Part shown: piece by piece, positions 66-16,119 of the stretch
Layout of the letters: each line of letters opens with the position of its first letter
Numbering within the stretch: position 1 is the first letter of the stretch
IMG/VR virus record: IMGVR_UViG_3300048838_001413
Location: 1 to 64,000 of that record
Direction: 5' to 3' (one strand)
Source of the DNA: a virus
DNA length: 64,000 nucleotides
Translations under genes and position numbers: made by a program
Notes under the pieces: generated by a model
What the model saw: only the letters and a program-made list of their open reading frames with translations
What the model was told of the DNA's origin: nothing
The model's database searches: none

Positions 66-98
66 GGCAGGGTTAACGCTGACCGGCTGCCACTCAGC
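66..98 (-). promoter_or_regulatory. Leader pseudoknot, copy 1
   Basis: Crossing arms on the plus strand: GGCAG 66-70 with CTGCC 87-91, and GCTGA 78-82 with TCAGC 94-98. It precedes the start codon of the truncated left-edge gene by 18 nt. A degenerate TTGGAAATTTTT block follows at about 103-112 without a clear TATAA box. Confidence 0.6.
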
Positions 99-133
99 TG
101 AAAAATTTCCAATTATTCGCTATTCAAAAATAG

Positions 134-2074
134 TTAAAATATCGACAACTGATCGGGATTGTTGAATACTTCGATCAGTTCGTTATCGTCGGCCGTATCT
201 TCCTCGAGTTCAATTTCAGGCACTTCGCCCAGGCAAACTACCGGCGTTTTGATAAGTTCAGGATAATCGGCCAGAACTTCCACGGGAACGGGCAGCCCTT
301 CGTTAAATGCTTTTTTCACCAATAATTTATGTGTGAGTTTTGCTGTTTCCAATGCCTGTGAGGCTTTATACCCACGGGTTTTGCTGGCCTCAGATTCGCG
401 TTTCCAGGCATTTAATGTGCTGTAGTGTTCATCCATCTTTGCCCGATAGGGTTTGATGAACTCACTGAGGGTAATACGCCAAACTTCGGGGCTGTCGGGA
501 GTATGTTTGGCGGCTTGCTGAGGGGGAGCTGCCGATGGCTTAGCTTTTGCCCGGTCAGCAGGTTTCATGGCTTCGGGCAATGGATATCCAAGCAGTTTGG
601 CAATACGCTGATTGAAACGCGCCCACAGGTCACGGTCTTTAAACCGGAAGTGCATGGTACCTTTTTTATACGCCCGTATTTCGAAATATGCCCAGGTAAA
701 TAATTGGCCGTACAGGGGTTCAGAATGTTCCAATATCACTTTTTTACCTTCGTCCTCGAGCTTTTTCTTTCCCTCGAGCGCGCCTCCGTAATGAATATCA
801 TCCCTGAAGTATTTCACCTGCCCATCGAAATGAAGTTTGTAAGGATATCGGATGTGATCTTGCAGAGATCCGAATTGTTTCCAGTTGTCGCCGCTGATGT
901 AGCAAAGCGCTTTTACCATATCTTCAACCAGCCCGAAATAACTACCATAGCTTGCCTGAATATGTGAACCCTTATGCCATTTGTCAGTTCCGCAAAGGTT
1001 TGGAAGGATAAACTTTTCGTTCAGGAGATATTGACTGTTGGTTTTCCAGCCCTCGAGGTTGAAACGGTTTTCGCTGTAGTGTTTAGTCGCGCGCTCAAAC
1101 ACTTCGAGCAATGCTTTATCCATGCGCTGTTCGGTGGTTGCGAAAACAATATCGAGCATACGGTAAATGTTTCGCATTGTGAAGGGGATCTGCTGGTTTT
1201 GTTCGACGAATTTATTAATCGATTCGGATAAACCCTGCGTTGTGTTTCTTGTCAGGTCCATTTTATTGAAAACAAAACGCCATGCACTTTTCTGAAGTTC
1301 TTTTTTGAACTCATTGCGAAGTTTTGGAATCCCGTTTTGCGTGCATTGAAAAGCAAGGTTATGGCCATAAAAGCTGCCCAGCATTTCGTTGAGTTTCAGC
1401 GCCGAGGTCAGCTGTTCATCGTAAATTTTAACGGCACCCACGTACCGGTTAACAATATCGCGGATAAAGTTATACGGCATGATTGCATTGGCTTGCTGTT
1501 CGGCAGGATCTTCCTCGAGGAAAAAGCCATCAAATTCGGTTTCGTAATTACCACCGGGTTTAATCAGTGTAATCATGGCCACTTCAACGTCGGTTTTGCG
1601 TTCGGCATTGCTGAAACATTCGCCCAGCTCAACCATGTTGCCATACTCATTGATAATAGTATTGAGTTCAGACCATGTGCCGTAAAAGCGATCACTTGCT
1701 GATTTTGATTTGCACAGCGAAACAATGCGGCAACCATCGGGGGCAATATTCCAGGCATGAAGAATGTGCCTTGAATCGCTTGAAAACGGGGGGTTCATGT
1801 AAATGGCATCGATATGGCTGACATGCTCAGCCTTAACCGTGAAAAAATCATTTGCCAGTAACCGGCATTTGTTGGCCAGTAATTTTGCAAAATCCTCGTC
1901 CTTTTCACAGGCGATCACTTCGGCAGCGCCATTATGCTGAAGCCAGGAAACAATGTTTCCACTTCCGGCCGAGGGTTCGAGAATTACTTTACCCGCGATG
2001 GTTTCGGAGGCCAGCATGGTTTCAATAACCTCTGGCGGGGTTGGATAAAAATCTTTGTCAAAGATTGATTTCAT
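134..2074 (-). CDS. DUF4942-type DNA adenine methyltransferase-like protein
   Basis: A 646-aa protein. The N-terminal third is an amino-methyltransferase domain: SAM-binding motif EPSAGSG at residues 33-39, catalytic NPPF at 94-97. By family knowledge NPPF/NPPY enzymes methylate exocyclic amino groups, usually N6 of adenine. The rest resembles DUF4942, with a W-A-Y-F-E-I-R then GTMHFRF segment and a PLPE stretch near residue 500. The last ~140 residues are low-complexity and helical. It is the last complete gene of the left arm and has its own block-plus-pseudoknot leader (2089-2157). Inference: it protects phage DNA or modulates methylation. The target sequence is unknown, but the 43-site GATC array at 16.6-17.1 kb makes GATC worth testing. 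The family call is firm; the specificity is not. Confidence 0.8.
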   Translation of the reverse strand: MKSIFDKDFYPTPPEVIETMLASETIAGKVILEPSAGSGNIVSWLQHNGAAEVIACEKDEDFAKLLANKCRLLANDFFTVKAEHVSHIDAIYMNPPFSSDSRHILHAWNIAPDGCRIVSLCKSKSASDRFYGTWSELNTIINEYGNMVELGECFSNAERKTDVEVAMITLIKPGGNYETEFDGFFLEEDPAEQQANAIMPYNFIRDIVNRYVGAVKIYDEQLTSALKLNEMLGSFYGHNLAFQCTQNGIPKLRNEFKKELQKSAWRFVFNKMDLTRNTTQGLSESINKFVEQNQQIPFTMRNIYRMLDIVFATTEQRMDKALLEVFERATKHYSENRFNLEGWKTNSQYLLNEKFILPNLCGTDKWHKGSHIQASYGSYFGLVEDMVKALCYISGDNWKQFGSLQDHIRYPYKLHFDGQVKYFRDDIHYGGALEGKKKLEDEGKKVILEHSEPLYGQLFTWAYFEIRAYKKGTMHFRFKDRDLWARFNQRIAKLLGYPLPEAMKPADRAKAKPSAAPPQQAAKHTPDSPEVWRITLSEFIKPYRAKMDEHYSTLNAWKRESEASKTRGYKASQALETAKLTHKLLVKKAFNEGLPVPVEVLADYPELIKTPVVCLGEVPEIELEEDTADDNELIEVFNNPDQLSIF

Positions 2075-2088
2075 TGTATTTGATTTTC

Positions 2089-2157
2089 GGCAGGGTTAAC
2101 GCTGACCGGCTGCCACTCAGCTTGAAAAATTTCCAATAATTGAGATAGTCCCTTATA
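2089..2157 (-). promoter_or_regulatory. Leader: pseudoknot copy 2 plus TATAAGGG/TTGGAAA block
   Basis: Pseudoknot arms GGCAG 2089-2093 / CTGCC 2110-2114 and GCTGA 2101-2105 / TCAGC 2117-2121, ending 14 nt before the methyltransferase ATG. Upstream in mRNA sense is TATAAGGG (TATAA at 2153-2157), a 13-nt gap, then TTGGAAATTTTT. The TAA inside TATAA is also the stop codon of the upstream gene. Confidence 0.7.
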
Positions 2158-2965
2158 GGGCTTTTCTTCTGATGATTTTCACTGCTGCATGAAACACAGC
2201 TGATTCAATACGTTCGCCAATAGCTTGCGAAAGCCTGGCTGCTGTTTCTTTGTAGGTTTCGCCTTCTTCCCTGGAGATAAGTACTGCATATTCGGCAGCA
2301 ATGCGGGAAACACGCTCTTTGTTGATTCTGCTTGCTTCGTCGGCCACTTTAGCCCAAGCAAGTTTCTGATTTTCGCGGCCAGCTCTCACCATTTCTTTTT
2401 TGCGAAGAATAGATGTGGCCACTTCTTCCGATACCTCCCATTGTTCAGCCATGTGTTCAACAATAGCCTCAAATGCTTCCTCTTTTGAATCGAAGTATGA
2501 AGTATCGCGCTGATCGTCGGTTGAAAATTCATGCTCAAAAGTACGTTCAAAGATAAAATCATCGGCTTCTTCATGCGTTTCAAATGACATGATCATTTTT
2601 GGATACTGGCCACGAAAGCCCCAATCCCATACCTGATAGACAATCTCCGTGCCTTCGTAGCATTTCTTGCACTCAGGATCGAAAGTATCTTCCTCAATGG
2701 TATTCCAGCAGGAACATTCCTGCTCAACTTCCCGTGTATGCCATTTGCGTTCAACCCCGCGTGGTGATGTTGTTTCCTCGGCTGATTCCATTACAAAATC
2801 GAGCAGGTTTGTTTCCTCGATTTTAAGATCAAAGCTGATCAGCCGGCTTGAAAGATGAATGATTTTCCCATCCTTGCGGGTCATGGTGCGGGGTTCGTAA
2901 ACCTCGTTTTCTTTTGCCAAAATATAAATTTTGGTTTCTTTTGCTTCTTTAGCTGTTGTTTTCAT
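2153..2965 (-). CDS. Hypothetical protein with Cys-rich patch
   Basis: A 270-aa protein I do not recognise. It is highly charged. A possible zinc-binding patch lies near residues 83-102 (C-x-C ... C-x-x-C: ECSCW then PECKKC). The second half (about 150-270) is predicted helical with many Glu, Ala and Arg. The codons end CTA TAA, and the stop is part of the downstream leader block. Its own leader has the TATAATG/TTGGAAA block (3048-3083) but, instead of the pseudoknot, a plain hairpin CCCC-TGCC-TGGGG just before the ATG. It is probably an early accessory protein. Confidence 0.65.
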   Translation of the reverse strand: MKTTAKEAKETKIYILAKENEVYEPRTMTRKDGKIIHLSSRLISFDLKIEETNLLDFVMESAEETTSPRGVERKWHTREVEQECSCWNTIEEDTFDPECKKCYEGTEIVYQVWDWGFRGQYPKMIMSFETHEEADDFIFERTFEHEFSTDDQRDTSYFDSKEEAFEAIVEHMAEQWEVSEEVATSILRKKEMVRAGRENQKLAWAKVADEASRINKERVSRIAAEYAVLISREEGETYKETAARLSQAIGERIESAVFHAAVKIIRRKAL

Positions 2966-3047
2966 GTTTTTACGCCCCTGCCTGGGGTCTTTATTTAGCC
3001 GATGGCGTGGCTGGTTAAATGGTTTTTAAAAGGGTTAAAGTTATTAA

Positions 3048-3083
3048 AAAAATTTCCAATAATTAAAACGGTTCATTATAGGG
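3048..3083 (-). promoter_or_regulatory. Leader block without pseudoknot
   Basis: In mRNA sense TATAATGA, 13 nt, then TTGGAAATTTTTTT. No pseudoknot follows; the leader to the ATG at 2965 instead has two short nested hairpins, AGCC...GGCT and CCCC...GGGG. Confidence 0.55.
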
Positions 3084-3089
3084 TTTAAA

Positions 3090-3713
3090 TTACCCGTAAA
3101 TTACTTCTCCCATCACGATAAGCTGAAACAGGGAATCTGCTTCGGTGGCATCGGATCCTCCATCAAGCATATTGTCGGTTAAATAGAGTTTCAGTCCACG
3201 TTCAATGTTTTCGCGGGATATTACGCCCAAAATGTTGGTTTCATCTTCAATGTCATAAACCGGGACTTCTTCGCCGTACTCAATAACTGCCCTGACAATT
3301 TTTTCGGAAAGCGAAAGCCCCTCAAAACCAATCTTTCTTACCATTTCAATATCGGGAAAATAATACCAGTAATTGCTTCCTCCTTCGAGGGCTGTTATCA
3401 GCATATCTTTAACGGCATCGATATTCACATTGATGGCGATTTGCCAGGGTTGGTTCCTGTGCTCGGAAGAGCAGTGATAATTTTTCTCAACCCATTCCAC
3501 GAATTTCGATTGATTGGTGGTGGATAGGTCGTAAAACCATTTGATGATTTTCCCGGGAGTGCATGTTTCTGTATGCGGATGCAGCTTGCCAATCAAGTGC
3601 TGAGCCAGATTGGAATCATCATGCCATACTTCGGTAATGATATCGTCGAATGATTTCGGGAAATTCGACAGGAAATAGACGAAATTGATAACTGCGAGTG
3701 TTTTTGTTTCCAT
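3090..3713 (-). CDS. Hypothetical protein
   Basis: A 207-aa protein without a recognised domain. It is mixed alpha/beta and acidic, with aromatic-rich segments (N-Y-W-Y-Y-F near residue 118). It has no signal peptide or membrane segment. It is preceded by a block-only leader (3729-3762) with a T-rich spacer directly before the ATG at 3711-3713. The neighbours are other unassigned left-arm genes, so context points only to an early accessory role. Confidence 0.6.
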   Translation of the reverse strand: METKTLAVINFVYFLSNFPKSFDDIITEVWHDDSNLAQHLIGKLHPHTETCTPGKIIKWFYDLSTTNQSKFVEWVEKNYHCSSEHRNQPWQIAINVNIDAVKDMLITALEGGSNYWYYFPDIEMVRKIGFEGLSLSEKIVRAVIEYGEEVPVYDIEDETNILGVISRENIERGLKLYLTDNMLDGGSDATEADSLFQLIVMGEVIYG

Positions 3714-3728
3714 GTTTTTTTTTGTTTT

Positions 3729-3762
3729 AAAATTTTTCCAATAAATTTATTCAGCCCTTATA
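3729..3762 (-). promoter_or_regulatory. Leader block without pseudoknot
   Basis: In mRNA sense CTATAAGGG, 13 nt, then TTGGAAAAATTTT. TATAA (3758-3762) overlaps the last codon and stop (CTA TAA) of the upstream gene. No pseudoknot lies before the ATG at 3713. Confidence 0.6.
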
Positions 3763-4351
3763 GAGCCAGTATTGTTTTGATTTCGTGATTACTCAGGCCG
3801 AGTTCGCGGAGATCGTCGATGCTTTGCTGCATGGTTATTTTTGCAGCCCGAACGCGATTGTTACGGCGGCGTTCGTTTGCTTCGTAAACGGTGGTTTCCC
3901 GCCGTTCATATTCATTCCATGCCCGGGTTAAAACGGGTTTCATGTTTCGGCTGTAATCACGGGAAGCCCAATCGTCGGCTTCTTTTTTCGCTTTTACATA
4001 CTGCTTTACAGTTTTGGCGACTGCTTCGGCATAAGTGGCAGCCCAAACTTTGCAGAAACGCGATTTTTTATACATTTCCTCGCGTGACTCTCCGGCATCG
4101 GCAACCGGCTCCGGTGCGGGTTTCGGGTTGGGGTTGAACAGCGAATTGTAGTCGAATTCAAGGATGTAAAAATCCTTTTCCTTGCCGTTGAGCGTGACAT
4201 TATCAGCCCACGTGAGGCCAATAGAGTAATTGTTGTCGAGCCTTTTAATCAGGAATTGACCTTTCGAGTCTTTAATTACCTGATAACCGGCGTTACTCCA
4301 GCACACGGTTTGACCGTTTTCGACTGCTGTAATAATTTCGTTTAGGTTCAT
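3758..4351 (-). CDS. Hypothetical protein, basic helical C-terminus
   Basis: A 197-aa unrecognised protein. The first ~75 residues look like a small beta-rich domain, followed by a Pro-rich linker (P-N-P-K-P-A-P-E-P) and a basic helical C-terminal region (about 90-197) rich in Arg and Lys. A nucleic-acid-binding role is possible but unproven. Its leader is unusual: a pseudoknot (4367-4399) preceded not by the TATAANGG block but by the TGTCCTTT-type promoter otherwise found before structural operons (4402-4437). It ends CTA TAA. Confidence 0.65.
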   Translation of the reverse strand: MNLNEIITAVENGQTVCWSNAGYQVIKDSKGQFLIKRLDNNYSIGLTWADNVTLNGKEKDFYILEFDYNSLFNPNPKPAPEPVADAGESREEMYKKSRFCKVWAATYAEAVAKTVKQYVKAKKEADDWASRDYSRNMKPVLTRAWNEYERRETTVYEANERRRNNRVRAAKITMQQSIDDLRELGLSNHEIKTILAL

Positions 4352-4366
4352 GGTTTTAAATTTATC

Positions 4367-4399
4367 GGCAGGGTTAACGCTGACCAGCTGCCGCTCAGC
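4367..4399 (-). promoter_or_regulatory. Leader pseudoknot, copy 3
   Basis: Arms GGCAG 4367-4371 / CTGCC 4388-4392 and GCTGA 4379-4383 / TCAGC 4395-4399, 15 nt before the ATG at 4349-4351. Upstream is a TGTCCTTT promoter rather than the usual block, showing that the pseudoknot and the block are separable modules. Confidence 0.65.
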
Positions 4400-4401
4400 T
4401 T

Positions 4402-4437
4402 TAAAATTACGCAGGGGTAATAATGTGTGAAAGGACA
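4402..4437 (-). promoter_or_regulatory. TGTCCTTT-class promoter in the left arm
   Basis: In minus-strand sense TGTCCTTT (4437-4430), 20 nt, then TAATTTTA (4409-4402), a TAnnTTTN -7 box. It is the one good copy of the structural-gene promoter class found among the left-arm genes. The transcript would begin just upstream of, or inside, the pseudoknot. Confidence 0.5.
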
Positions 4438-4440
4438 GGT

Positions 4441-4713
4441 TTAAAGAAATATCCGGATGTTACTTACTTCCTTTTTCATTTGTTTTTCAAAGGAAGTGCC
4501 CCTTCCTTCGTATTGTGTGCTTTCGTTTTGCAGAACAGCCATAACAATACACTTTGGCAAAATCATGGAGTTATGGTTTTCGTCCCAGCTATCAATATCA
4601 ATTGCACCTGAATTTAGTGCTTTATCAATCTTTTGCAGCATATCTTCATGGGATTCATTCAGCATTTTAATAGCCAAAGATTTGATCGCGGCTTTTTTAC
4701 TTTCGTTTTTCAT
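4441..4713 (-). CDS. Hypothetical small protein
   Basis: A 90-aa charged, largely helical protein; residues 1-35 are Lys- and Glu-rich. There is no recognised family. The start at 4711-4713 is fixed by the pseudoknot leader ending 17 nt upstream. The gene is followed by the TGTCCTTT promoter of the next gene. Confidence 0.6.
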   Translation of the reverse strand: MKNESKKAAIKSLAIKMLNESHEDMLQKIDKALNSGAIDIDSWDENHNSMILPKCIVMAVLQNESTQYEGRGTSFEKQMKKEVSNIRIFL

Positions 4714-4730
4714 TGGTTTGAATGTATTTC

Positions 4731-4798
4731 GGCAGGGTTAACGGAGGCCAGCTGCTACTCTCCTGAGATTTTTCCAGTTATGGAACTAAGCCCTTATG
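4731..4798 (-). promoter_or_regulatory. Leader: pseudoknot copy 4 plus degenerate block
   Basis: Arms GGCAG 4731-4735 / CTGCT 4752-4756 and GGAG 4743-4746 / CTCC 4760-4763 (second stem-1 version). The block is weaker here: CATAAGGG, 13 nt, CTGGAAAAA. Stem 2 has lost its outer pair in the mRNA sense (A opposite C). Confidence 0.6.
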
Positions 4799-5145: not shown

Positions 5146-5161
5146 TTCGATTAAGATTTTC

Positions 5162-5232
5162 GGCAGGGTTAACGCTGGCCGGCTGCCACTCAGCTTTGAA
5201 AAATTTTCCAATTTTTAAATCTGATCTCTATA
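5162..5232 (-). promoter_or_regulatory. Leader: pseudoknot copy 5 plus block
   Basis: Arms GGCAG 5162-5166 / CTGCC 5183-5187 and GCTGG 5174-5178 / TCAGC 5190-5194, 16 nt before the ATG at 5145. The block reads TATAGAGA, 13 nt, TTGGAAAATTTTTC. The TATA part lies inside the last codons of the upstream gene. Confidence 0.65.
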
Positions 5233-5628
5233 GGGATCATTTAACGCATCGTTGACATCTTCCCAACATGCGAGATACCATTCCTGAGCATCTTCGCCCG
5301 AGAACCATGCGGGAGTAAAGCCCTTGATTCCGTGGGCTTCGTGAAATTCGCCGCTGATCTCGAAAGGTTCAGCAATGCCATGTTCGTCGAACTTGATGTC
5401 AAGCGATATTCCATACCCGTAAGGGTCGGGCAGGTGCTCAAACACCTGTTTCATCAGGGCATCAACTTTCGGGGCTTCTTCATCGGTAAAAAGCCGGTTG
5501 TTTCCTATGGTAATTACATCAGCAGCCGGATCGTCGGGGTGATATAGTTCACCATTTTTTGCTAACTGAGCGAGAAACCTTTTGGCTTCTGCCTCTGAAT
5601 TGATACTTTCGGGGAGGGTTGTTTTCAT
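5215..5628 (-). CDS. Hypothetical acidic protein
   Basis: A 137-aa acidic protein, not recognised. It contains a D-P-Y-G-Y-G segment near residue 71 and an aromatic C-terminal region (E-W-Y-L-A-C-W-E-D). Its ATG (5626-5628) overlaps the TGA of the upstream gene as ATGA, so the two are probably translationally coupled. It is the last gene of a three-gene unit 6384-5215. Confidence 0.6.
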   Translation of the reverse strand: MKTTLPESINSEAEAKRFLAQLAKNGELYHPDDPAADVITIGNNRLFTDEEAPKVDALMKQVFEHLPDPYGYGISLDIKFDEHGIAEPFEISGEFHEAHGIKGFTPAWFSGEDAQEWYLACWEDVNDALNDPYRDQI

Positions 5629-6146: not shown

Positions 6147-6147
6147 G

Positions 6148-6401: not shown

Positions 6402-6434
6402 GGCAGGGTTAACGGAGGCCGGCTGCCACTCTCC
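6402..6434 (-). promoter_or_regulatory. Leader pseudoknot, copy 6 (no block)
   Basis: Arms GGCAG 6402-6406 / CTGCC 6423-6427 and GGAG 6414-6417 / CTCC 6431-6434. It lies in the 58-nt gap between two genes of one transcription unit and has no TATAANGG block of its own, which argues for action on the RNA rather than as a promoter part. Confidence 0.65.
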
Positions 6435-6579: not shown

Positions 6580-6611
6580 AATTTTTCCAATTATTTTATT
6601 CAGCCATTATA
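6580..6611 (-). promoter_or_regulatory. Leader block without pseudoknot
   Basis: In mRNA sense TATAATGG, 13 nt, TTGGAAAAATTTT. The TATAA overlaps the final codons of the LPD29 gene. It serves the 42-aa gene 6443-6571 and, by read-through, the pseudoknot-led unit below it. Confidence 0.6.
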
Positions 6612-7993
6612 GCAGTTAAGTTGTTGGCAAAATCCCACAGTTCGTCGGTATGCTTTACCCACCACACTTTCGAGAAACGTGACCAGCGAAACCCTGTCAT
6701 TTTCAGCAATTCGATGATGGTATCATCCGGTTTGGATGAAAAGGAAATTTCAATGCCGTTTTTCTCTTCGTTTTTACGCACTACAATGCCGGCGTTATCG
6801 ATGGGTTCAGCGTGCATGGGTTCGGTTTCGTCCGGTTGCTCCGTGATGGCTTTCCATTTGTGATTTTCCTGATCACGAACGATAGAAAAGGGGGTTGATG
6901 GGATTTCGAGTTGATAGAAAATACGATTCAACTCTTCCCGCTCTGTACCAAATTCGTTTGTTTTGTGATTTTCTTTGACAAGCGCCGCTATAATAGCCTC
7001 GGTTTCGTCAGACATTGAGCGATCTTCAAACACATAATTGCATCCGCCGAAAACTTCGTTGAAAAGATCGGGGCTGTAGTCACGGAAATCGCCTGACGAA
7101 TCGGTAACGTGATCTTCATACTTTGAAGAGATCTCCTTCACCTGGTTTTTAGTTGGCCCGTCCGTCCAGCGAATATCACAGGAAGAATACGAACTTGTGA
7201 TGCTGAATTTTACTTCCGGAAAAAGGCGTTTCAATTCAATGCGAAGATTCACGGCCACATGCTTTCCACCGCCTGAATTTCGGGAAGGTTTCTGCAAATA
7301 CGGGTAACTTTGCTCAATCTCAGCGATCTGAGCATCGCGCTCAGCTTTGGCAGCGGCTTCACGGGCAGGGCGGGCATCCTCGTCGGCCTGAGCCTTGGCA
7401 AGTGCTTTTTCGAGTAATTCGGCAGCAAATTCAGGAGAAACAACATCGCCCTTTTTGTAGTATTTCCCAATGCCGGACTTGTGCTCAATATCACGCAGGT
7501 ATGACAAGCTATCATGCGTAATTTGAAGATTGGTTTCGTTTACGGTGTAATAGTCAAACTCGTCCAGTTTGTAAATAATTAATCGTTTATCATAACTTAC
7601 GTTCTGACCGGAATCATTCATGAAAACAACCTGCCCAACCTCGATTTTATACGCTTCGTCCTTTGATGGGAGTTCGTCGGTATTGGCCTGAAACTTTGCC
7701 AAAGCAGCCATATGCAGGGCTTTTACCTTTGCCTCTGTGGCTATTGCTTTTTCAGAACCGAGTTCGATGGTTTTTTCCATATCGCTCATTGAGAACGAAA
7801 CGCAATACATAGAGCCTGATGTTCCGGCATCGTTTACCTTCATGGCATAAGACCTTATGCCACCCCTGCCTTTAGAGGTTATTATCTCATAGCAATACCC
7901 TTTTATTTTGATAAGGGTTTCGCCCATCCACTCACCATGGCTGCGGGTAATTCGGGTTTTTGGTTCTTCGGTAATGAATTTTGATTTTTCCAT
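6596..7993 (-). CDS. LPD29-domain polyvalent-type protein
   Basis: A 465-aa multidomain protein. Residues ~245-300 match my memory of LPD29, a large-polyvalent-protein-associated domain: N-L-R-I-E-L-K-R-L-F-P, then V-K-F-S-I, then I-R-W-T-D-G-P-T. An Ala/Glu/Arg-rich helical linker (about 195-230) precedes it. The C-terminal ~45 residues carry a compact G-F-R-W-S-x-F-x-K-V-W-W motif, a small DNA/RNA-handling type domain seen in many phage and plasmid proteins. By family knowledge such proteins act early, often delivered with or acting on DNA; the exact role is not known. It has a block-plus-pseudoknot leader (8010-8078). Confidence 0.7.
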   Translation of the reverse strand: MEKSKFITEEPKTRITRSHGEWMGETLIKIKGYCYEIITSKGRGGIRSYAMKVNDAGTSGSMYCVSFSMSDMEKTIELGSEKAIATEAKVKALHMAALAKFQANTDELPSKDEAYKIEVGQVVFMNDSGQNVSYDKRLIIYKLDEFDYYTVNETNLQITHDSLSYLRDIEHKSGIGKYYKKGDVVSPEFAAELLEKALAKAQADEDARPAREAAAKAERDAQIAEIEQSYPYLQKPSRNSGGGKHVAVNLRIELKRLFPEVKFSITSSYSSCDIRWTDGPTKNQVKEISSKYEDHVTDSSGDFRDYSPDLFNEVFGGCNYVFEDRSMSDETEAIIAALVKENHKTNEFGTEREELNRIFYQLEIPSTPFSIVRDQENHKWKAITEQPDETEPMHAEPIDNAGIVVRKNEEKNGIEISFSSKPDDTIIELLKMTGFRWSRFSKVWWVKHTDELWDFANNLTAIMAE

Positions 7994-8009: not shown

Positions 8010-8078
8010 GGCAGGGTTAACTGAGGCCAGCTGCTACTCTCGGTTAAAATTTTCCAATTCTGAGATTAAACCCTTATA
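8010..8078 (-). promoter_or_regulatory. Leader: pseudoknot copy 7 plus block
   Basis: Arms GGCAG 8010-8014 / CTGCT 8031-8035 and AACTGAG 8019-8025 / CTCGGTT 8039-8045 (third stem-1 version). The block is CTATAAGGG, 13 nt, TTGGAAAATTTT. The distance to the ATG is 16 nt. Confidence 0.65.
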
Positions 8079-8082: not shown

Positions 8083-8289
8083 TTATAATTCGTTAAAGAA
8101 AAAGTTGAAATACTCTTTGTTGTGCTCCTGATTATTCAGGTAATTACACATTTGCTTTTTTAACGCCTTTGGCATAGCTTTGAATTGCTCCCTTGCCTGA
8201 GCTCTTTGCCCGTTGATTACAGATTCGACACACATATCGAAGTACTGTTCTACTGTTTTAAATCCGTAAAATTTTAAAAGCTTTTTCAT
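8083..8289 (-). CDS. Hypothetical small helical protein
   Basis: A 68-aa Lys- and Phe-rich protein with repeated short helices. The start at 8287-8289 is fixed by the leader 16 nt upstream. It is not recognised. It sits alone between two complete block-plus-pseudoknot leaders, so it is probably expressed and controlled separately. Confidence 0.6.
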   Translation of the reverse strand: MKKLLKFYGFKTVEQYFDMCVESVINGQRAQAREQFKAMPKALKKQMCNYLNNQEHNKEYFNFFFNEL

Positions 8290-8305
8290 TGGTTTGAAAT
8301 TTTTC

Positions 8306-8374
8306 GGCAGGGTTAACTGAGGCCAGCTGCTACTCTCGGTTAAAATTTTCCAATATTTGAGATAGTCCCTTATA
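8306..8374 (-). promoter_or_regulatory. Leader: pseudoknot copy 8 plus block
   Basis: Arms GGCAG 8306-8310 / CTGCT 8327-8331 and AACTGAG 8315-8321 / CTCGGTT 8335-8341. The block is CCCTATAAGGG, 13 nt, TTGGAAAATTTT. Nearly identical to copy 7, suggesting recent duplication. Confidence 0.65.
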
Positions 8375-9655: not shown

Positions 9656-10072
9656 TTAGAAAAGTGATAACTGGCTTTTGCTGTGGGATTGCTCCGGTTC
9701 GTCGGTTTCATCCGTTTCATCGGCCTCCGGTTCGGTTTCGTCGGGTTCATCGGTTTCATCGGTTTCATCGGTTTCCGTTTCCGTTTCGGGTTCAACCTCG
9801 ACAACAGCCTCGGGAGCATGAATTACTTCACAGTTAACCGGTTGGCCAACCTCGAGGTTATCTTCGTCAAAGTAATGCACCGCCATGCCGTACACTTCGG
9901 CATCGGTAAAGGCATTGCAGCCGCTTTTCTTCACCTGATTGAGAATATAGGTTACACAGTCGTCAATGTTTTTCCCCTCTTTGCCCAGGGAAATAGCGAA
10001 TTGATCATCACGAACGGCTCGCATGGCAATGTATTCGGTGATAACGTTTGTAAAACTTTCGGTAGCTTTCAT
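9656..10072 (-). CDS. Hypothetical protein with Thr-Asp-Glu repeat tail
   Basis: A 138-aa protein. Residues 1-85 form a small globular part with a D-D-C-V-T-Y-I-L-N-Q-V-K helix. Residues ~90-130 are an acidic repeat of the type E-T-D-E-T-D. The DNA repeat behind it (TCGGTTTCATCGG units around 9707-9778) is a likely slippage site. An acidic tail can mimic DNA charge or act as a flexible linker; this is speculative. It is the first gene of a two-gene unit with the PcfJ-like gene. Confidence 0.65.
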   Translation of the reverse strand: MKATESFTNVITEYIAMRAVRDDQFAISLGKEGKNIDDCVTYILNQVKKSGCNAFTDAEVYGMAVHYFDEDNLEVGQPVNCEVIHAPEAVVEVEPETETETDETDETDEPDETEPEADETDETDEPEQSHSKSQLSLF

Positions 10073-10086
10073 TGGTTTGATATTTC

Positions 10087-10155
10087 GGCAGGGTTAACTG
10101 AGGCCAGCTGCCACTCTCAGTGAAAATTTTCCAATATTTAATCAAAGCCCTTATA
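10087..10155 (-). promoter_or_regulatory. Leader: pseudoknot copy 9 plus block
   Basis: Arms GGCAG 10087-10091 / CTGCC 10108-10112 and ACTGAG 10097-10102 / CTCAGT 10116-10121, a perfect 6-bp stem 1. The block is CTATAAGGG, 13 nt, TTGGAAAATTTTC. The distance to the ATG is 14 nt. Confidence 0.7.
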
Positions 10156-10451: not shown

Positions 10452-10665
10452 TTTTATCCTCCCGTAATTTAGCTGCATAATACAGCGAATCAGGTTTCGA
10501 GAATCCGGCTTCCACGTAAGCGATAACCCATGCTTTATTTTCGGGATATCCCTGTTTTTGATAGTGAGTGGCGAGCCGGTTTGCTTTGTCAATTTTGACA
10601 AGCATGAAACAGCATATCACGATAACCAGCATGACTGCTTTCGCTATGATTTTTTCGGTTTTCAT
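10441..10665 (-). CDS. Small membrane-anchored protein
   Basis: A 74-aa protein with one N-terminal hydrophobic span (about residues 9-24, A-V-M-L-V-I-V-I-C-C-F-M-L-V) followed by a charged helical tail. By topology it is a type II membrane protein or an uncleaved signal anchor. It starts 12 nt after the clamp-like gene and overlaps the next gene, so it belongs to that operon. No family recognised. Confidence 0.55.
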   Translation of the reverse strand: MKTEKIIAKAVMLVIVICCFMLVKIDKANRLATHYQKQGYPENKAWVIAYVEAGFSKPDSLYYAAKLREDKNEN

Positions 10666-10677
10666 ACTTCCGCCCCC

Positions 10678-12381
10678 TTATATTGCGTGATAACTGAGGC
10701 CGACGGTCTGCATGGCTTCATCAAGCTGAGCACGACGTTTCTTGGAAAACAAATAACCATCCCTGCGCTCAGTACCAACGAGGATTTTGCATTTACTTCC
10801 GTATTTGAGCAAAAATTCATCGGGCAGTAAATCGGTTAAGCCGACTACGCCAAATGCTTTTTCGGTAACGCTTTCAATTACCGTGAGTAATTCAGGAAGA
10901 TCTTCCTGCTCCGGCTCCGGTTCGGTTTCATCCACGATAGCCTCGGGAATTTCTTCGGCTTCGGGTTCGGGTTTCGGCATTCTTGCGATAATAATTTCCC
11001 CGATTTTTCTTTCGGGCTGAATAGGGTTCTCAACTACTTCGGCCGGTGCTTCGGCCTCGGGTGAAATTTCCCCGTTTTCATTTTCGGGCTGAATAGTGGT
11101 TTCGGCAGGGGTTTCGGCAGGGGTTTCAGCTGCGATGATTTCGTCGAAACGGGCTTTCACCTCGCTTGCCAAAATAGTTACACCGCACTTTGATTTCAGG
11201 ACATCAAGCCCGTGTAAATGCGATAATACTGAATGCCGGCTGCTTTTGTTGCCATCGCCTGAACAATTCATGATGATTTCGTTACTCCAATCCCGCTCGC
11301 TTTTGCGATACATAGCCAACCATTTCTCCAAAAGAGATTCAGCTTGTACGTTGGAACCCTTGCCGATTTTGCTACCAAATACCGGCTCTCCGATCGCTGC
11401 ATCATCGATCATAAGCGGCATTAACAGCGTATTGCCGTTAATAATCATTGCCCTGTTTGAAGCCGACATTTCTATCGTAGTTGATTCGCTTGAAGTGTCG
11501 ATGCCCTTTATCATATACGAGCCATTAAAAGCGATAGGGAAGTACTTTGCACCAAACAGTACGCACGGCAATTCTGTGCGATATTCTGTATTCAAATCCA
11601 AATCCTCGGATTCGATTACCAAGCGATCAGGATGGGCAATCATGAGAACATTTTGCGTTACCTTGTTTGCCGATTTCAGCGCGTTTTTAACAGCGGATAC
11701 AAAATCCGAAGTTTTTACAATCAGGCTTGCCGGATTGTCGATCGGTATTACATTCCAATACTCAGGGTATCTACCCTCGATTAACCTGAAATTAATAATC
11801 TGTTTTTCAGAGATTATTTCCAAGCGAGGGTATTGCGAATTGTCAAAACTCACAACACCCGCTGCTATATTCGCAGCTGCAGCTTTCGGGATAATGACAT
11901 TGCTGACCGTGGTCTGCTTATCTTTAAACCAGCGAAGCATATGGGCATCGGTAGCTGCAATTTGTTTTCCGCCTAAAAATACGCCTGACATTGCCGGCCG
12001 CAGATCATCATTTCCTGTGAAAGGCACAAGGCTTGCTACCTGAGCGGCCTCTTCCTCGCTAATTGTGTCGATGTAATCTTTGCAAGGAATAGCAAGCGGA
12101 AATTCATCAATATTGCCAATCAACGCAAATTTGCTTGCAGAGTTTCCTTTTTTTACGTGAAGAAACCCGTCACGGATTTCGGCGGAATCGTAACTGCCCA
12201 CTTTGTTCAGGGATGTCAGGTCAATTACCCCTTCGCCCTTGATGTCCGTTTGCACGGAAAGACGAATTTCGAGGTTGTCACTGGTCGCCCATCCGTTTTG
12301 AATTAAGGCGGTTTGATCGATGATCGGCAGGGTGCTGCCTTTGGTAAGTTTCATCATTCGTTTGATGTCACTGTTTTTCAT
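10678..12381 (-). CDS. DNA sliding clamp (beta/DnaN-like) with C-terminal extension
   Basis: A 567-aa protein. The first ~325 residues align by eye with bacterial beta clamps: N-D-D-L-R-P-A-M-S-G-V-F-L at 124-136, A-T-D-A-H-M-L-R at 143-150, E-G-R-Y-P-E-Y at 202-208 followed by V-I-P, and a terminal M-P-L-M-I near 321-325, where DnaN ends M-P-M-R-L. A clamp encircles DNA and tethers polymerase. Unlike DnaN (about 370 aa) it continues for ~240 residues: a linker, an acidic Pro/Glu-rich stretch (about 430-505) and a small C-terminal domain (about 510-567). I found no DNA polymerase gene in the window, so the clamp may recruit the host enzyme or one encoded outside it. Block-plus-pseudoknot leader 12399-12468. 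Confidence 0.75.
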   Translation of the reverse strand: MKNSDIKRMMKLTKGSTLPIIDQTALIQNGWATSDNLEIRLSVQTDIKGEGVIDLTSLNKVGSYDSAEIRDGFLHVKKGNSASKFALIGNIDEFPLAIPCKDYIDTISEEEAAQVASLVPFTGNDDLRPAMSGVFLGGKQIAATDAHMLRWFKDKQTTVSNVIIPKAAAANIAAGVVSFDNSQYPRLEIISEKQIINFRLIEGRYPEYWNVIPIDNPASLIVKTSDFVSAVKNALKSANKVTQNVLMIAHPDRLVIESEDLDLNTEYRTELPCVLFGAKYFPIAFNGSYMIKGIDTSSESTTIEMSASNRAMIINGNTLLMPLMIDDAAIGEPVFGSKIGKGSNVQAESLLEKWLAMYRKSERDWSNEIIMNCSGDGNKSSRHSVLSHLHGLDVLKSKCGVTILASEVKARFDEIIAAETPAETPAETTIQPENENGEISPEAEAPAEVVENPIQPERKIGEIIIARMPKPEPEAEEIPEAIVDETEPEPEQEDLPELLTVIESVTEKAFGVVGLTDLLPDEFLLKYGSKCKILVGTERRDGYLFSKKRRAQLDEAMQTVGLSYHAI

Positions 12382-12398
12382 TTTGATATGGTTTTTTT

Positions 12399-12468
12399 GG
12401 CAGGGTTAACTGAGGCCGGCTGCCACTCTCGGTTGAAAATTTTCCAATATTTTAATTAAGCCCTTATA
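12399..12468 (-). promoter_or_regulatory. Leader: pseudoknot copy 10 plus block
   Basis: Arms GGCAG 12399-12403 / CTGCC 12420-12424 and AACTGAG 12408-12414 / CTCGGTT 12428-12434. The block is CCCTATAAGGG, 13 nt, TTGGAAAATTTTC. It lies before the clamp gene, 17 nt from its ATG. Confidence 0.7.
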
Positions 12469-12471
12469 GGG

Positions 12472-13452
12472 TTAATCAATCCAAAAAGTTCCGCAGTCGA
12501 GGCACTTGTTTCCGCATGGGTAATTGTTTATATAAATCACGTTTCGGTGCCGGGTATATTTCATATCACATGGGGTGCATTTACCGGCTTTGAATGTGGC
12601 CTCATAAATGCGATCTCTTTCGAGAATAGCATTGAGGCTGCTTTTGGGCGCTTCGATCGCAATTTCGTCATGCTTAAACGAAAAGCAGGTATCATCGCAC
12701 CAGTTCGAGAACATTCCGCAAACATCATAAGTGTAATTATAGCTGATGCTGCGTTCAAATTTCAGATTATCTCTATCGAAAGGAAGCTGAAATTCATGGC
12801 CGTTGATTTGGCAATTATCGCCGGAACCATTGCCTGTATTAATAATTGCGATATGTGCATTTTTGAAAATGACCACATTCATATCGTCTGAAATGTCGAG
12901 CAGATCATCAATTCCTGATGTAAAATATACGACCAACTGGCCGCCATAACTTGCCTGTTGCAGCATCATATCAATCGCACTATCGTGTATTGAATTTGTA
13001 ATTGACAGCGCTTTTTTTATGATTATTCTATCAAGGCGATATGCAGCAGCACTTTGACCCCAACCATCAAATTCAAGCCCCGTATCGTAAAAGAAAATTT
13101 CGTCGCCGGTGTTTTTAATCAGCTGTTTAATGTCGAGATCAACGCTGATAAGATCACGTGCCCAATCTTTGAAATCATCCTCCCATTCGGTTTGTTCGCC
13201 AAGTTCGGCTTCAATTTGTTGCGCGAAGTATTCGAGCACTTCGGTAACTGCATCTCTTTCAAGACCGCAGATATGCTCGAGGTTGCAATCCCACAACTCA
13301 TTCTCAACCTCCAATAATCCTTCCTTTGAGGAAATAATCTTTTCGATTTGCTCTTTGCCCAATTCCTCGCGATAATCCCAATAAACTTCCGGCTGATGTT
13401 TTTCGATGTAAGCGATGATCTCTGCTTTTAGGTTTTCTGAAAGGTTTTCCAT
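12472..13452 (-). CDS. Hypothetical protein with C-terminal Cys cluster
   Basis: A 326-aa acidic protein, not recognised. The C-terminus has a probable zinc site (C-T-P-C-D near 292-296 and C-G-N-K-C-L-D-C-G near 313-321). The first ~120 residues are strongly helical and Glu-rich. It is the second gene after 13511-13666 and is preceded by a pseudoknot (13468-13500) without a promoter-like block. Confidence 0.6.
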   Translation of the reverse strand: MENLSENLKAEIIAYIEKHQPEVYWDYREELGKEQIEKIISSKEGLLEVENELWDCNLEHICGLERDAVTEVLEYFAQQIEAELGEQTEWEDDFKDWARDLISVDLDIKQLIKNTGDEIFFYDTGLEFDGWGQSAAAYRLDRIIIKKALSITNSIHDSAIDMMLQQASYGGQLVVYFTSGIDDLLDISDDMNVVIFKNAHIAIINTGNGSGDNCQINGHEFQLPFDRDNLKFERSISYNYTYDVCGMFSNWCDDTCFSFKHDEIAIEAPKSSLNAILERDRIYEATFKAGKCTPCDMKYTRHRNVIYINNYPCGNKCLDCGTFWID

Positions 13453-13467
13453 TTTCGTAATTATTTC

Positions 13468-13500
13468 GGCAGGGGTAACGCTGGCCAGCTGCCACTCAGC
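13468..13500 (-). promoter_or_regulatory. Leader pseudoknot, copy 11 (no block)
   Basis: Arms GGCAG 13468-13472 / CTGCC 13489-13493 and GCTGG 13480-13484 / TCAGC 13496-13500, 15 nt before the ATG. It sits in the short gap after a 51-aa gene. The GTTAAC hexamer of copies 1-10 is GTTACC here in mRNA sense. Confidence 0.65.
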
Positions 13501-13510
13501 TTGAAATTAA

Positions 13511-13666
13511 TTACCAGATTTCAGTCCCGTTTGGTAGCCGGTCAACTTTAAGCCAGTTTTTAATCCATTGCTTTGCAGCGTTGAGGCTTGATTGACTTTC
13601 CGGAAAGTTATAACCGTAAAAATTGCCCTGAAGCCGGAACCACCTGTATTCTTTTCGTTTTGCCAT
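13511..13666 (-). CDS. Hypothetical 51-aa Trp-rich protein
   Basis: A 51-aa protein starting M-A-K-R-K-E-Y-R-W-F at 13664-13666, stop 13511-13513. It is basic and aromatic, with four Trp. The pattern R-W-F-R-L-Q-G-N-F-Y-G-Y then A-K-Q-W-I-K-N-W-L resembles a tiny DNA-binding fold such as the AP2-like or integrase N-terminal types, but this is only an impression. It is supported by its own block-plus-pseudoknot leader 15 nt upstream. Confidence 0.55.
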   Translation of the reverse strand: MAKRKEYRWFRLQGNFYGYNFPESQSSLNAAKQWIKNWLKVDRLPNGTEIW

Positions 13667-13681
13667 TTTCGTAATTATTTC

Positions 13682-13751
13682 GGCAGGGGTAACTGAGGCC
13701 GGCTGCCACTCTCGGTTGAAAATTTTCCAATTATTTTAAATTCTCATTATA
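13682..13751 (-). promoter_or_regulatory. Leader: pseudoknot copy 12 plus block
   Basis: Arms GGCAG 13682-13686 / CTGCC 13703-13707 and AACTGAG 13691-13697 / CTCGGTT 13711-13717. The block is CCCTATAATGA, 13 nt, TTGGAAAATTTTC. Confidence 0.7.
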
Positions 13752-14009
13752 GGGATATTTCCCCACACCATAAGGAAATTGAACTTTTTGCAAAATGGGC
13801 ACATGCGCATTCCAAACAACGCGGATAGTTTGCCCATTATAAAGCAACGAAATATCACCGGCTGAATAGAACGATCTTTGCACCAATCGTTTCCAATTGG
13901 CAATGAGTTCCTTTTTCGTTTTTATACGCCACCCAATGTAGCTGTTTCCATACCTGACAACGTATTTGTCGGGTAAACTGTCGCTATAAGCATTCCAAAT
14001 TCTTTCCAT
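13731..14009 (-). CDS. Hypothetical small protein
   Basis: A 92-aa basic protein starting M-E-R-I-W-N-A-Y-S at 14007-14009. A longer reading would translate back through the leader block at 14027-14060, so I reject it. It has aromatic and basic segments (Y-V-V-R-Y-G-N-S-Y-I-G-W-R-I) and is not recognised. It has a block-only leader. Confidence 0.55.
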   Translation of the reverse strand: MERIWNAYSDSLPDKYVVRYGNSYIGWRIKTKKELIANWKRLVQRSFYSAGDISLLYNGQTIRVVWNAHVPILQKVQFPYGVGKYPYNENLK

Positions 14010-14026
14010 TTTATTTCGTTTTAAGT

Positions 14027-14060
14027 GAAAATTTTCCAATATTTTGAAACGGCCTTTATA
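14027..14060 (-). promoter_or_regulatory. Leader block without pseudoknot
   Basis: CTATAAAGG, 13 nt, TTGGAAAATTTTCAC in mRNA sense, 18 nt or more before the ATG at 14009. Confidence 0.6.
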
Positions 14061-14064
14061 GAGA

Positions 14065-14367
14065 TTATAATCTCGGCCTGACCTGTTCAACAAACCACCG
14101 GTTTTGCGGCCAATTCAACGGCATGTTATATTTTTCGGCGATCAGCTGATCGTACCTTTCGCTAAATCTTTCGTATTGTACCTCTCCGGCTCTTTTGCTT
14201 GAAATTCGTTGAACCAGTACAAGCTTTGTCCCGAAAAGTTTACGAAAGTTTCCGTCGGTTGTTTTCGGCAGCCTTGCGAAATTCCTTTCGCTGATAATGG
14301 TAACGCTCTCTTTCCCTTCGTAAGAAAGGTCGCTGAGCAAAACATGAAATTGTCGGTTGTTATACAT
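14065..14367 (-). CDS. Hypothetical basic protein
   Basis: A 100-aa protein starting M-Y-N-N-R-Q-F-H-V-L-L at 14365-14367, 11 nt after the stop of the upstream gene. It is rich in Arg/Lys with an L-P-K-T-T-D-G-N-F-R-K-L-F segment. Not recognised. Third gene of a compact three-gene unit starting at 14831. Confidence 0.55.
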   Translation of the reverse strand: MYNNRQFHVLLSDLSYEGKESVTIISERNFARLPKTTDGNFRKLFGTKLVLVQRISSKRAGEVQYERFSERYDQLIAEKYNMPLNWPQNRWFVEQVRPRL

Positions 14368-14378
14368 CGCTTTAATTT

Positions 14379-14585
14379 TTAAACGTTTATAATTATCCTG
14401 GGCGCAATGTCCCAAAATTTACTTTCCGGTGTGTCGGCCGGTGCTGTGAATGATTTCCGGTATTCTTGTCCGGTATCTCTCTCGTAATAAGAGAAAACAG
14501 CCCATGCAACCTTTTTGCGGCGATCTTTGCTATCCCTGCGGGAATGATCGTATTTCTCGAGGGATTTTCGGATTAAGTGCGACAT
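14379..14585 (-). CDS. Hypothetical basic protein
   Basis: A 68-aa, strongly basic N-terminus (R-R-D-S-K-D-R-R-K-K), then a V-A-W-A-V-F-S-Y-Y strand. It lies 3 nt after the preceding gene. Unrecognised; middle gene of a three-gene unit. Confidence 0.55.
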   Translation of the reverse strand: MSHLIRKSLEKYDHSRRDSKDRRKKVAWAVFSYYERDTGQEYRKSFTAPADTPESKFWDIAPRIIINV

Positions 14586-14588
14586 TTT

Positions 14589-14831
14589 TTAGCCCTCCAT
14601 TGCGAAAAATACACGAACCTTTGCGGGAAAGTATTGCAGATTTTGTTCAGTGATTACCACTTTCCCTTTATATATCGCCATTGTGCTCTCGTAAATATAT
14701 TCGAGCTGTCGATAATGAATACGCTCGATAGGGCTGTTGTGGTTTTTGGCAAGTTCCTCGAAAGATTTAGTTCCGGCAGCTGTAGCCCGCTGCATGGTTG
14801 CCACCTCTCTACGCAAAAATGAAATATTCAT
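14589..14831 (-). CDS. Hypothetical protein
   Basis: An 80-aa protein, N-terminal half helical and basic, C-terminal half beta-like (A-I-Y-K-G-K-V-V-I-T-E-Q). First gene of the unit that continues into 14379-14585 and 14065-14367. Its pseudoknot leader ends 15 nt before the ATG. Confidence 0.55.
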   Translation of the reverse strand: MNISFLRREVATMQRATAAGTKSFEELAKNHNSPIERIHYRQLEYIYESTMAIYKGKVVITEQNLQYFPAKVRVFFAMEG

Positions 14832-14846
14832 GATATAAATAATTTC

Positions 14847-14913
14847 GGCAGGGGTAACGGAGGCCGGCTGCCACTCTCCAAATTTTTTCCAATTTTTTTC
14901 AAAGCCCTTTATA
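14847..14913 (-). promoter_or_regulatory. Leader: pseudoknot copy 13 plus block
   Basis: Arms GGCAG 14847-14851 / CTGCC 14868-14872 and GGAG 14859-14862 / CTCC 14876-14879. The block is CCCTATAAAGG, 13 nt, TTGGAAAAAATTT. Confidence 0.7.
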
Positions 14914-15676
14914 GGGATTTAATAATCCATTCCTTACGGTCGTTTTCCTCACGTTCCTCACGGGCTTTTGTTTCGAGTTTTTCAACCGATAGCATTAAAT
15001 TCCATACGAAAATTGAGCCCCGAAGTTCATCCATCATCTGCTGAACAGGTATCAAGCGCTTTTTAAACGATTGAATGAATTTATCTTTTGGCACCTCGGT
15101 TATTTTGCCATTATTCCCGATAAAGAACCGGTCATTTCCCAACACGCTCGAAAGTAAGCTAACAACCTCCAAGGTTACATCTTCGGCCTTAATTTCTCCG
15201 TTATATATCCACCGCAATCCCCTGCTTGTGAAAAATGATGTCGTTCTGCAAGCCAGTAAGCTTTTCAATGCTTTTTCAAGCTTTTCAACGCAAAATATAT
15301 TGGTTCCGGTATCTCTCATGCCGTAATAGAATTCGCCGGTATAGCCAGCAAGTTCTTTCTTATCGTGATATGTAAAATCACGATGAAAATGTTTCAGGTA
15401 AGGGGTTACGATTGGCTGTAATTGCTCATGGTAAGGCTTTACTATCGGGTTTACATAACCCAAACCGCCGAGAGTTACCCCTTTCATGTAATACTTCGAG
15501 CGGGTAAAGTGGTTTCGCTCTGCAATGCTCATTACGATTTCGCAAATGTGTTTTCCATTCACCTTAACCTCGAATTTGCAATAATTCGTGGTTTTAATCG
15601 AAGAGGTAAATTGTTCGGGGTTGCCGTATTTTTTCAGCATTTTCTCCCGCAAATTCGTGTAATTAATAGCGTTCAT
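14909..15676 (-). CDS. Hypothetical protein
   Basis: A 255-aa protein, unrecognised. It is mixed alpha/beta with many Lys and aromatic residues. The last ~40 residues form a charged helix (E-K-L-E-T-K-A-R-E-E-R-E-E-N-D-R-K). It follows the 30-aa membrane-protein gene by only 4 nt, so both probably share the block leader at 15797-15833. Its stop codon precedes the TATAAAGG block of the next gene. Confidence 0.6.
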   Translation of the reverse strand: MNAINYTNLREKMLKKYGNPEQFTSSIKTTNYCKFEVKVNGKHICEIVMSIAERNHFTRSKYYMKGVTLGGLGYVNPIVKPYHEQLQPIVTPYLKHFHRDFTYHDKKELAGYTGEFYYGMRDTGTNIFCVEKLEKALKSLLACRTTSFFTSRGLRWIYNGEIKAEDVTLEVVSLLSSVLGNDRFFIGNNGKITEVPKDKFIQSFKKRLIPVQQMMDELRGSIFVWNLMLSVEKLETKAREEREENDRKEWIIKSL

Positions 15677-15680
15677 GGTT

Positions 15681-15773
15681 TCAGGGTTTTAAGTTGATTA
15701 GCAATATTGTTGCGAAAAATACCATCGCGACAATTACAAACAATTTTTCGGCTGTTGACGGTTCAGTTTCCAT
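15681..15773 (-). CDS. 30-aa membrane peptide
   Basis: A 30-aa reading, M-E-T-E-P-S-T-A-E-K then a hydrophobic span L-F-V-I-V-A-M-V-F-F-A-T-I-L-L-I, ATG 15771-15773, TGA 15681-15683. A clean acidic N-tail plus one transmembrane span, a block leader directly upstream and tight coupling to the next gene support it. Function unknown. Confidence 0.45.
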   Translation of the reverse strand: METEPSTAEKLFVIVAMVFFATILLINLKP

Positions 15774-15796
15774 TTTCGTAATTATTTTCGGCATTT

Positions 15797-15833
15797 GTGA
15801 AAATTTTCCAATTATTTTAAATTCGCTTAATAG
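15797..15833 (-). promoter_or_regulatory. Leader block without pseudoknot (degenerate)
   Basis: CTATTAAGC (one base longer than TATAANGG), then TTGGAAAATTTTCAC. A stub of the pseudoknot region (TCGGCA) remains at 15788-15793, but the rest is missing, so this may be a decayed leader. Confidence 0.45.
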
Positions 15834-16070
15834 TTATTCCCAATAAGCAATTTCAGACAACCGGTTCATGTTTTGCAAACCGGTGAAATGGTTGATAATT
15901 ACCACGCTGAAAATGAAATTAGACGGGATATTAAGTACATTCGAGCAATAGCACTTGGCAACATTTACCGATTCAAACGCAGCCCCTTTTTCGATGTGAT
16001 TATTCACATAATATGCAAGCCACGAAAGGGCTAAAAATTGCTGCGAGGTGAGATTTTTTTTGTAATCCAT
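15834..16070 (-). CDS. Hypothetical small protein
   Basis: A 78-aa protein starting M-D-Y-K-K-N-L-T-S-Q-Q-F-L-A-L-S-W-L, mostly helical with a hydrophobic segment (F-I-F-S-V-V-I-I-N-H-F) near residues 52-62. Not recognised. First gene of the left arm after the repeat-rich region; its pseudoknot copy 14 lies 16 nt upstream and the nearest block about 340 nt further. Confidence 0.55.
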   Translation of the reverse strand: MDYKKNLTSQQFLALSWLAYYVNNHIEKGAAFESVNVAKCYCSNVLNIPSNFIFSVVIINHFTGLQNMNRLSEIAYWE

Positions 16071-16086
16071 TTTCGTAATTATTATC

Positions 16087-16119
16087 GGCAGGGGTAACGG
16101 AGGCCGGCTGCCACTCTCC
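16087..16119 (-). promoter_or_regulatory. Leader pseudoknot, copy 14 (no adjacent block)
   Basis: Arms GGCAG 16087-16091 / CTGCC 16108-16112 and GGAG 16099-16102 / CTCC 16116-16119. A second partial copy (CCGGCTGTCGTTCAGC, 16142-16157) lies immediately upstream. Confidence 0.65.

Follow-up and report, generated by a model that had tools for sequence, protein, structure and literature searches.

A repeated candidate RNA pseudoknot ahead of accessory-gene start codons in a probable Bacteroidota phage, and different elements at the same place in related phages

The rpsO (S15) operator of Escherichia coli is a pseudoknot near the start codon that is recognized on the platform of the 30S ribosomal subunit. 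It resembles elements that we describe here from a 64-kb stretch of DNA (64,000 nucleotides; the window) of the 68,835-base virus record IMGVR_UViG_3300048838_001413, but differs from them in that it serves one gene, contains the Shine-Dalgarno sequence (SD) within its structure, and has a ribosomal protein as its effector. Our subject is a repeated element of the window, here called family A, which an original prediction made from the sequence had proposed to be a pseudoknot recurring in front of start codons. The end of the record beyond the window was also scanned.

Three other described systems are comparable, the first being the nearest in behavior and the second the nearest in shape. The start-associated sequences (SAS) and extended start-associated sequences (ESAS) of cluster K mycobacteriophages are, like family A, present in many copies per genome, mostly in one orientation, before the starts of unrelated non-structural genes, and their function is unknown (PMC3203893). 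The SAS is a 13-bp sequence, GGGATAGGAGCCC, that includes an SD and lies 3–7 bp ahead of the start; its authors found no support for RNA pairing in the ESAS repeats (PMC3203893). The likeness in placement to these sequences drawn by the original prediction is borne out by the many copies, single orientation, and position before non-structural gene starts found for family A. Unlike the SAS, family A is a folded RNA with a compensatory stem, has no conserved SD, and stands 14–18 nt away from the start; its consensus, GTRGCAGCYGGYCNNNGTTAMCCCTGCC, does not match that of the SAS with its SD core. The gene 32 operator of phages T4 and RB69, a pseudoknot of about 28 nt of RNA that stands 5' of a less structured A/U-rich initiation region, resembles the fold predicted for family A, but it is autogenous, serves a single gene, and is followed by more than 40 nt containing UUAAA repeats and the SD (PMC535899). 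Family A differs in preceding 16 genes by a short spacer and in having no known protein. The STAXI element, a pseudoknot that recurs close to genes for antirestriction and other DNA handling, resembles the candidate pseudoknot of family A in this respect, but is arranged as two to three tandem repeats and frequently has UUCG loops (PMC2864571). We found no description in open-access papers of multi-copy, structure-conserved, exchangeable modules at start codons. The choice of start codons without SD pairing in Bacteroidota and their phages is only partly understood, and a structured RNA at a fixed distance before many unrelated starts, in at least three interchangeable designs, offers a direct handle on start choice in Bacteroidota.

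Read as mRNA, family A has the layout S1 - GU - GGCAG - CYGGY - S1' - GUUAMCC - CUGCC, in which S2 is formed by GGCAG and CUGCC; the predicted crossing order S1-S2-S1'-S2' is present in the sequence. All 14 copies originally predicted in the window were recovered on the minus strand, which is the strand of the genes and gives the mRNA sense, and a 28-nt consensus matches exactly these 14 (0.00 expected from shuffled sequences). The copies, referred to below by their first coordinate, are:

66–98, minus strand: family A, S1 GCTGA/TCAGC; start codon at 45–47.
2089–2121, minus strand: family A, S1 GCTGA/TCAGC; 5' of the DUF4942 gene 134–2074.
4367–4399, minus strand: family A, S1 GCTGA/TCAGC, S2 lengthened by a C-G pair; 38 nt past the preceding stop codon, without the promoter-like block.
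4731–4763, minus strand: family A, S1 GGAG/CTCC, first S2 pair broken (A.C).
5162–5194, minus strand: family A, S1 GCTG/CAGC.
6402–6434, minus strand: family A, S1 GGAG/CTCC; 5 nt past a stop codon, GTG start, without the promoter-like block.
8010–8044, minus strand: family A, S1 ACCGAG/CTCAGT (C.A mismatch), first S2 pair broken; 5' of the LPD29-domain gene 6596–7993.
8306–8340, minus strand: family A, S1 ACCGAG/CTCAGT (C.A mismatch), first S2 pair broken, the same version as in 8010.
10087–10121, minus strand: family A, perfect S1 ACTGAG/CTCAGT; 5' of the pcfK gene 9656–10072.
12399–12433, minus strand: family A, S1 with a C.A mismatch; 5' of the DnaN-like gene 10678–12381.
13468–13500, minus strand: family A, S1 GCTG/CAGC; about 10 nt past the stop codon of gene 13511–13666, without the promoter-like block.
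13682–13716, minus strand: family A, S1 with a C.A mismatch.
14847–14879, minus strand: family A, S1 GGAG/CTCC.
16087–16119, minus strand: family A, S1 GGAG/CTCC; without the promoter-like block.

Two more copies, at 67711 and 68129 of the record, lie beyond the window and bring the total to 16. A further match at 68726, at the contig end, has the flank of copy 66 on its downstream side and that of copy 2089 on its upstream side, and is best read as an assembly chimera and not as an additional copy. Record positions 68660–68835 (5161–5336 of locus L001) repeat the contig start and then switch to the flank of copy 2089, and this end is probably a circular overlap plus an assembly chimera through the repeat. 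The copies are confined to an accessory-gene block of about 17 kb that spans the contig ends, with none in the structural-gene region, so that the description of the element as phage-wide was too strong.

As had been predicted, every copy (16 of 16, in the sense orientation) ends 14–18 nt before a start codon, this being ATG in 15 cases and GTG in the one after copy 6402, and the intervening spacer is 57% A; an open reading frame (ORF) starts at this distance from only 5.9% of random sense positions in the same region. The 16 downstream proteins have no similarity to one another, indicating that retention of the element does not depend on the gene. The copies sit behind the stop codon of the preceding ORF, five of them within 10 nt, and the sole ORF to overlap an element is a 63-amino-acid ORF in an alternative frame at 13468. 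Ten of the copies in the window directly follow a promoter-like block (CTATAAGGGCT...ATTGGAAAATTTT). The four copies said to lack this block do lack it, as do those at 67711 and 68129. Where the block occurs without the element, a start codon often follows just 5–18 nt behind it, and family A thus resembles an insertion between the block and the A-rich start region. A transposable repeat would be placed independently of strand and gene starts, and family A is not. The copies without the block, the fixed start distance, and the compensating stem S1 support the proposal of an independent start-associated module. A coding role was rejected on inspection, since the reading frames contain stops or non-synonymous changes, and a terminator role was rejected because no U-run stands behind the element. 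The block itself is found about 16 times on the contig (for example at 3742, 10135, and 14040 of the window, on the minus strand) and is accompanied by a near-palindromic CCCTATAAGGG.

Stem S1 occurs as GCUG/CAGC, GGAG/CUCC, and UGAG/CUCA, plus two versions with one mismatch, and a fifth pair (A-U) is found only in copies 66, 2089, and 4367. The claim that the versions have matching partners is correct for most copies, but not for 8010, 8306, 12399, and 13682 (CCGAG/CTCAG, with an internal C.A) or for 67711 (one mismatch). Two adjacent S1 pairs are swapped on both sides (GC for CG, AU for UA) and are paired in every copy. Pairing between the arms is far above that obtained by permutation (p 3.5e-5), and the covariation score of family A is 0.244, compared to 0.090 for shuffled and at most 0.043 for slid controls. 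Polymorphic sites between the S1 arms combine freely with the S1 types, which is not expected under simple descent of whole copies. These compensatory changes among the copies of one genome show that S1 pairs.

The evidence for S2 (GGCAG/CTGCC) is of a different kind. When family A is set against the H-type pseudoknot of the T4 gene 32 type, S1 covaries, but the 3' arm of S2 is invariant, four of its six pairs never vary, no compensatory change occurs in the core, and the first pair is lost (A.C) in 4 of the 16 copies (4731, 8010, 8306, and 67711). A nested rival pair within the S1 loop (alignment column 14 with column 20) is GC in 9, AU in 3, and GU in 3 of the 15 distinct rows; this pair is always satisfied and uses the same base as the S2 pair that is broken in four copies, although the association is weak (p 0.04). 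Nearest-neighbor energies permit both folds, with the nested minimum at approximately -5 to -11 kcal/mol and S1 plus S2 at approximately -7 to -16 kcal/mol before the pseudoknot penalty. The predicted pseudoknot is thus upheld with respect to the compensating S1 and the crossing order, but not with respect to S2, with which the nested pairing competes. We consider that family A is likely to form a pseudoknot, judging from its sequence. The long-range GGC(A):(U)GCC contact is still likely because the analogous loop helix of a second family (family B, below) covaries, and switching between the nested and pseudoknot folds is possible.

Pattern scans of IMG/VR and of the GTDB representatives revealed no homologue of the exact family A element elsewhere; the matches obtained were attributed on inspection to chance, those in GTDB being in Saccharothrix. 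A blastn search against phages found nothing. Two weak blastn leads, MT835895 and OY726023 (public records), were chance matches. A family A covariance model run over 1.26 Mb of related loci recovered only this phage, with the next match at 15 bits compared to at least 56 bits for the family, and a de novo search with a pseudoknot descriptor in primase and DUF4942 relatives found no start-associated family.

The closest relative by protein, locus L002, has 65% identity over 567 amino acids to the window protein 18155–19870. It also encodes PcfK, PcfJ, and DUF4942, and its starts are preceded, at the corresponding position, by a repeated element unlike family A. A search with this element yielded the family B consensus GGYGNGCCAGAURCCAANAYAAGUCCNN-AGGGCA-NNGGC, which is normally located 8–12 nt before the start codon. 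In 31 phage records, the family B covariance model identifies 69 copies that we call strong (E 5e-10 or better), with up to 7 per record; carriers include L002, L011, L118, L120, L125, L129, L138, L154, and further IMG/VR loci. Among copies that the model identified irrespective of start codons, all but one likewise have an ATG 5–13 nt past the end of the model. The genes downstream encode ArdC, RadC-like, DnaJ-domain, SLOG, and unknown proteins. Over 48 gapless rows, helix P1 (GGC/GCC, GGU/ACC, GCU/AGC, AGC/GCU) and helix P2 (12 versions, including CCGC/GCGG, CUCA/UGAG, and CCAA/UUGG) are both 100% paired, and the covariation score is 0.480 compared to 0.184 for shuffled and at most 0.060 for slid controls. 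A third, crossing helix joins the P1 loop to the P2 loop (GCC with GGC). In it, GC is replaced by AU in two phages (L040 and L114; p 0.003), and a U-A pair is added only where A is the partner (8 of 8; p 1.7e-5); note that these p-values take the copies as independent. The three covarying helices establish family B as a real RNA.

Family B is also present in the phage of the window:

2973–3016, minus strand: family B, P1 GCC/GGC, P2 CCCC/GGGG, loop AGGCA; 9 nt before the ATG of gene 2153–2965.

A model of P1 and P2 trained without this copy (R2) ranks it top, with an E-value of 0.0069 over the window plus the contig end and of 0.00027 over the first 17 kb. The phage thus carries both families. 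None of the 14 family A copies in the window matches R2; only 2973–3016 does so. Rfam 15 covariance models at the gathering threshold gave no match in the window, which agrees with the statement that family A fits no known riboswitch class, and no cis-regulatory match, STAXI included, in the family B loci; family B is absent from Rfam 15. Being compact and strongly covarying, family B can help in annotating the accessory genes of phages (antirestriction ArdC, RadC-like, PcfK) and true start sites. In eight contigs of 10–131 kb (L115, L126, L131, L134, L136, L137, L142, and L144) a single family B copy precedes a conserved protein of 93–94 amino acids (MNIFSSLRVYAGKW...), for which no Pfam match was found. 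Two family B copies of L002 are each preceded by a nearly identical stretch of about 170 nt (at about 3660–3830 and 8140–8310), which may be a larger structured leader or a promoter region.

A third design, family C, was found in gut phage contigs (L030–L036; for example L030 4097, L031 4207, and L035 376), 17–20 nt before the start. It consists of TTAACC, a 5-bp hairpin, and ACAAAA; its stem compensates (GAGGG/CCCTC, GAGCC/GGCTC, GCCTC/GAGGC, GCGCC/GGCGC), and its covariation score is 0.669 compared to 0.140. Families A, B, and C have in common their placement, an invariant flank or loop, and a freely drifting stem. Families A and B occur before the same gene: pcfK is preceded by family A in the window and by family B in L002, and no element was recognized before it in eight other relatives. 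The three families are best read as interchangeable cis-acting RNA modules at start sites.

The proteins of the window include a tape measure protein, an integrase, a head protease, a DnaG-type primase, PcfJ, PcfK, DUF4942, DUF5131, and LPD29, and several are related to those of phages of Leeuwenhoekiella, Tenacibaculum, Riemerella, Cellulophaga, Polaribacter, and gut Bacteroides. By these proteins the phage is a temperate siphovirus, probably with a host in the Bacteroidota.

How might such modules act? We give about even credence to the view that they are modular cis-acting RNA structures in the 5' leader or intercistronic gap, acting on translation initiation 14–18 nt downstream. Translation initiation is favored by the location of the element, with a promoter or stop codon on one side and an open A-rich start region on the other, by the fixed distance, by the independence of the gene, and by compensation at the RNA level. 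The S1 hairpin would display the GGCAG loop, whose pairing with the downstream CUGCC would produce a compact fold beside the open A-rich spacer. This fold may then be recognized, on the 30S platform or close to it, by the ribosome or bS1, or by a conserved host RNA-binding protein, and so mark or tune the start. Recognition of the fold would be the most likely mode of action because Bacteroidota ribosomes do not use SD pairing. Ribosomes of Bacteroidia sequester the anti-Shine-Dalgarno sequence in a pocket of the platform (PMC9976891), and with that sequence hidden an upstream fold could weigh more in Bacteroidia than elsewhere.

Several observations weigh against an initiation module. Many homologous genes carry no recognized element, so it cannot be required for translation as such. 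The covariation of family A is drawn from related copies within one genome with no homologue outside the phage, and its S2 is without support from variation. The host was assigned by protein relatedness alone. In addition, one family B copy (L200 550–596, from relative G005, G005:C1:15249–15295), in which the loops pair as ACC/GGU and not as GCC/GGC, comes right after a stop codon and is followed directly by an intrinsic terminator where a start codon would be expected.

An alternative to which we accord a minor but real chance is that the elements are translational operators of a phage-encoded RNA-binding regulator, which would repress or activate the whole accessory set in the manner of T4 gp32, acting on its own gene, or of RegA, acting on many. 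Confinement of many near-identical copies to one gene block of one genome, the invariant loop and linker bases of family A, and the occurrence of distinct families in distinct phages, expected if the regulators differed, are all consistent with such an operator. Against it, the family B loops stay the same in 31 records that vary in size (about 10 to 131 kb) and in gene content, and no regulator gene common to the carriers was identified, though no systematic search was made. The conservation of the family B loops and junction across phages of many samples and across records of 10–131 kb, with stems that drift freely, leads us to favor a shared reader on the host side. The fuller proposal, that sequence-unrelated, interchangeable folds (A, B, and C) are read by the ribosome, or by a conserved protein of the host, as a structural signal for the start and so form a counterpart of the SD, is put forward tentatively and is itself doubtful.

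It is unlikely that the elements serve mRNA processing or stability, as an endonuclease site or a protective 5' or 3' structure that splits operons or shields ends. Their position directly behind promoter-like blocks or stop codons, and the family B copy that precedes a terminator instead of a start codon, would suit this role, but processing has no need of a fixed, short distance to the start. Although family A is repeated and its arms can be read as inverted repeats, an operator, recombination site, or mobile repeat acting at the DNA level is very improbable, given that the copies are always in the sense orientation at a fixed distance before starts and downstream of the promoter-like block, that none occurs elsewhere in the genome, and that S1 and families B and C show compensation of the RNA type. 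A metabolite riboswitch, suggested by a compact pseudoknot-like fold 5' of starts, is scarcely credible, as no Rfam riboswitch class is matched, the downstream genes share no pathway, the stems vary freely, and no evidence was found for the small-molecule ligand originally suggested.

Other repeats were noted beside the element-bearing block. Adjoining its end, at 16566–17081 of the window, are about 44 tandem 12-bp units (TCAGGCAAACGA), possibly origin iterons or a partition site. Within gene 17138–17626, an 18-bp coding repeat (17337–17495) gives rise to a low-complexity, alanine-rich stretch. Near the 12-bp array, a tandem 18-bp unit, TATCGCACATGCGAAACA, makes a long dyad at 17836–17933.

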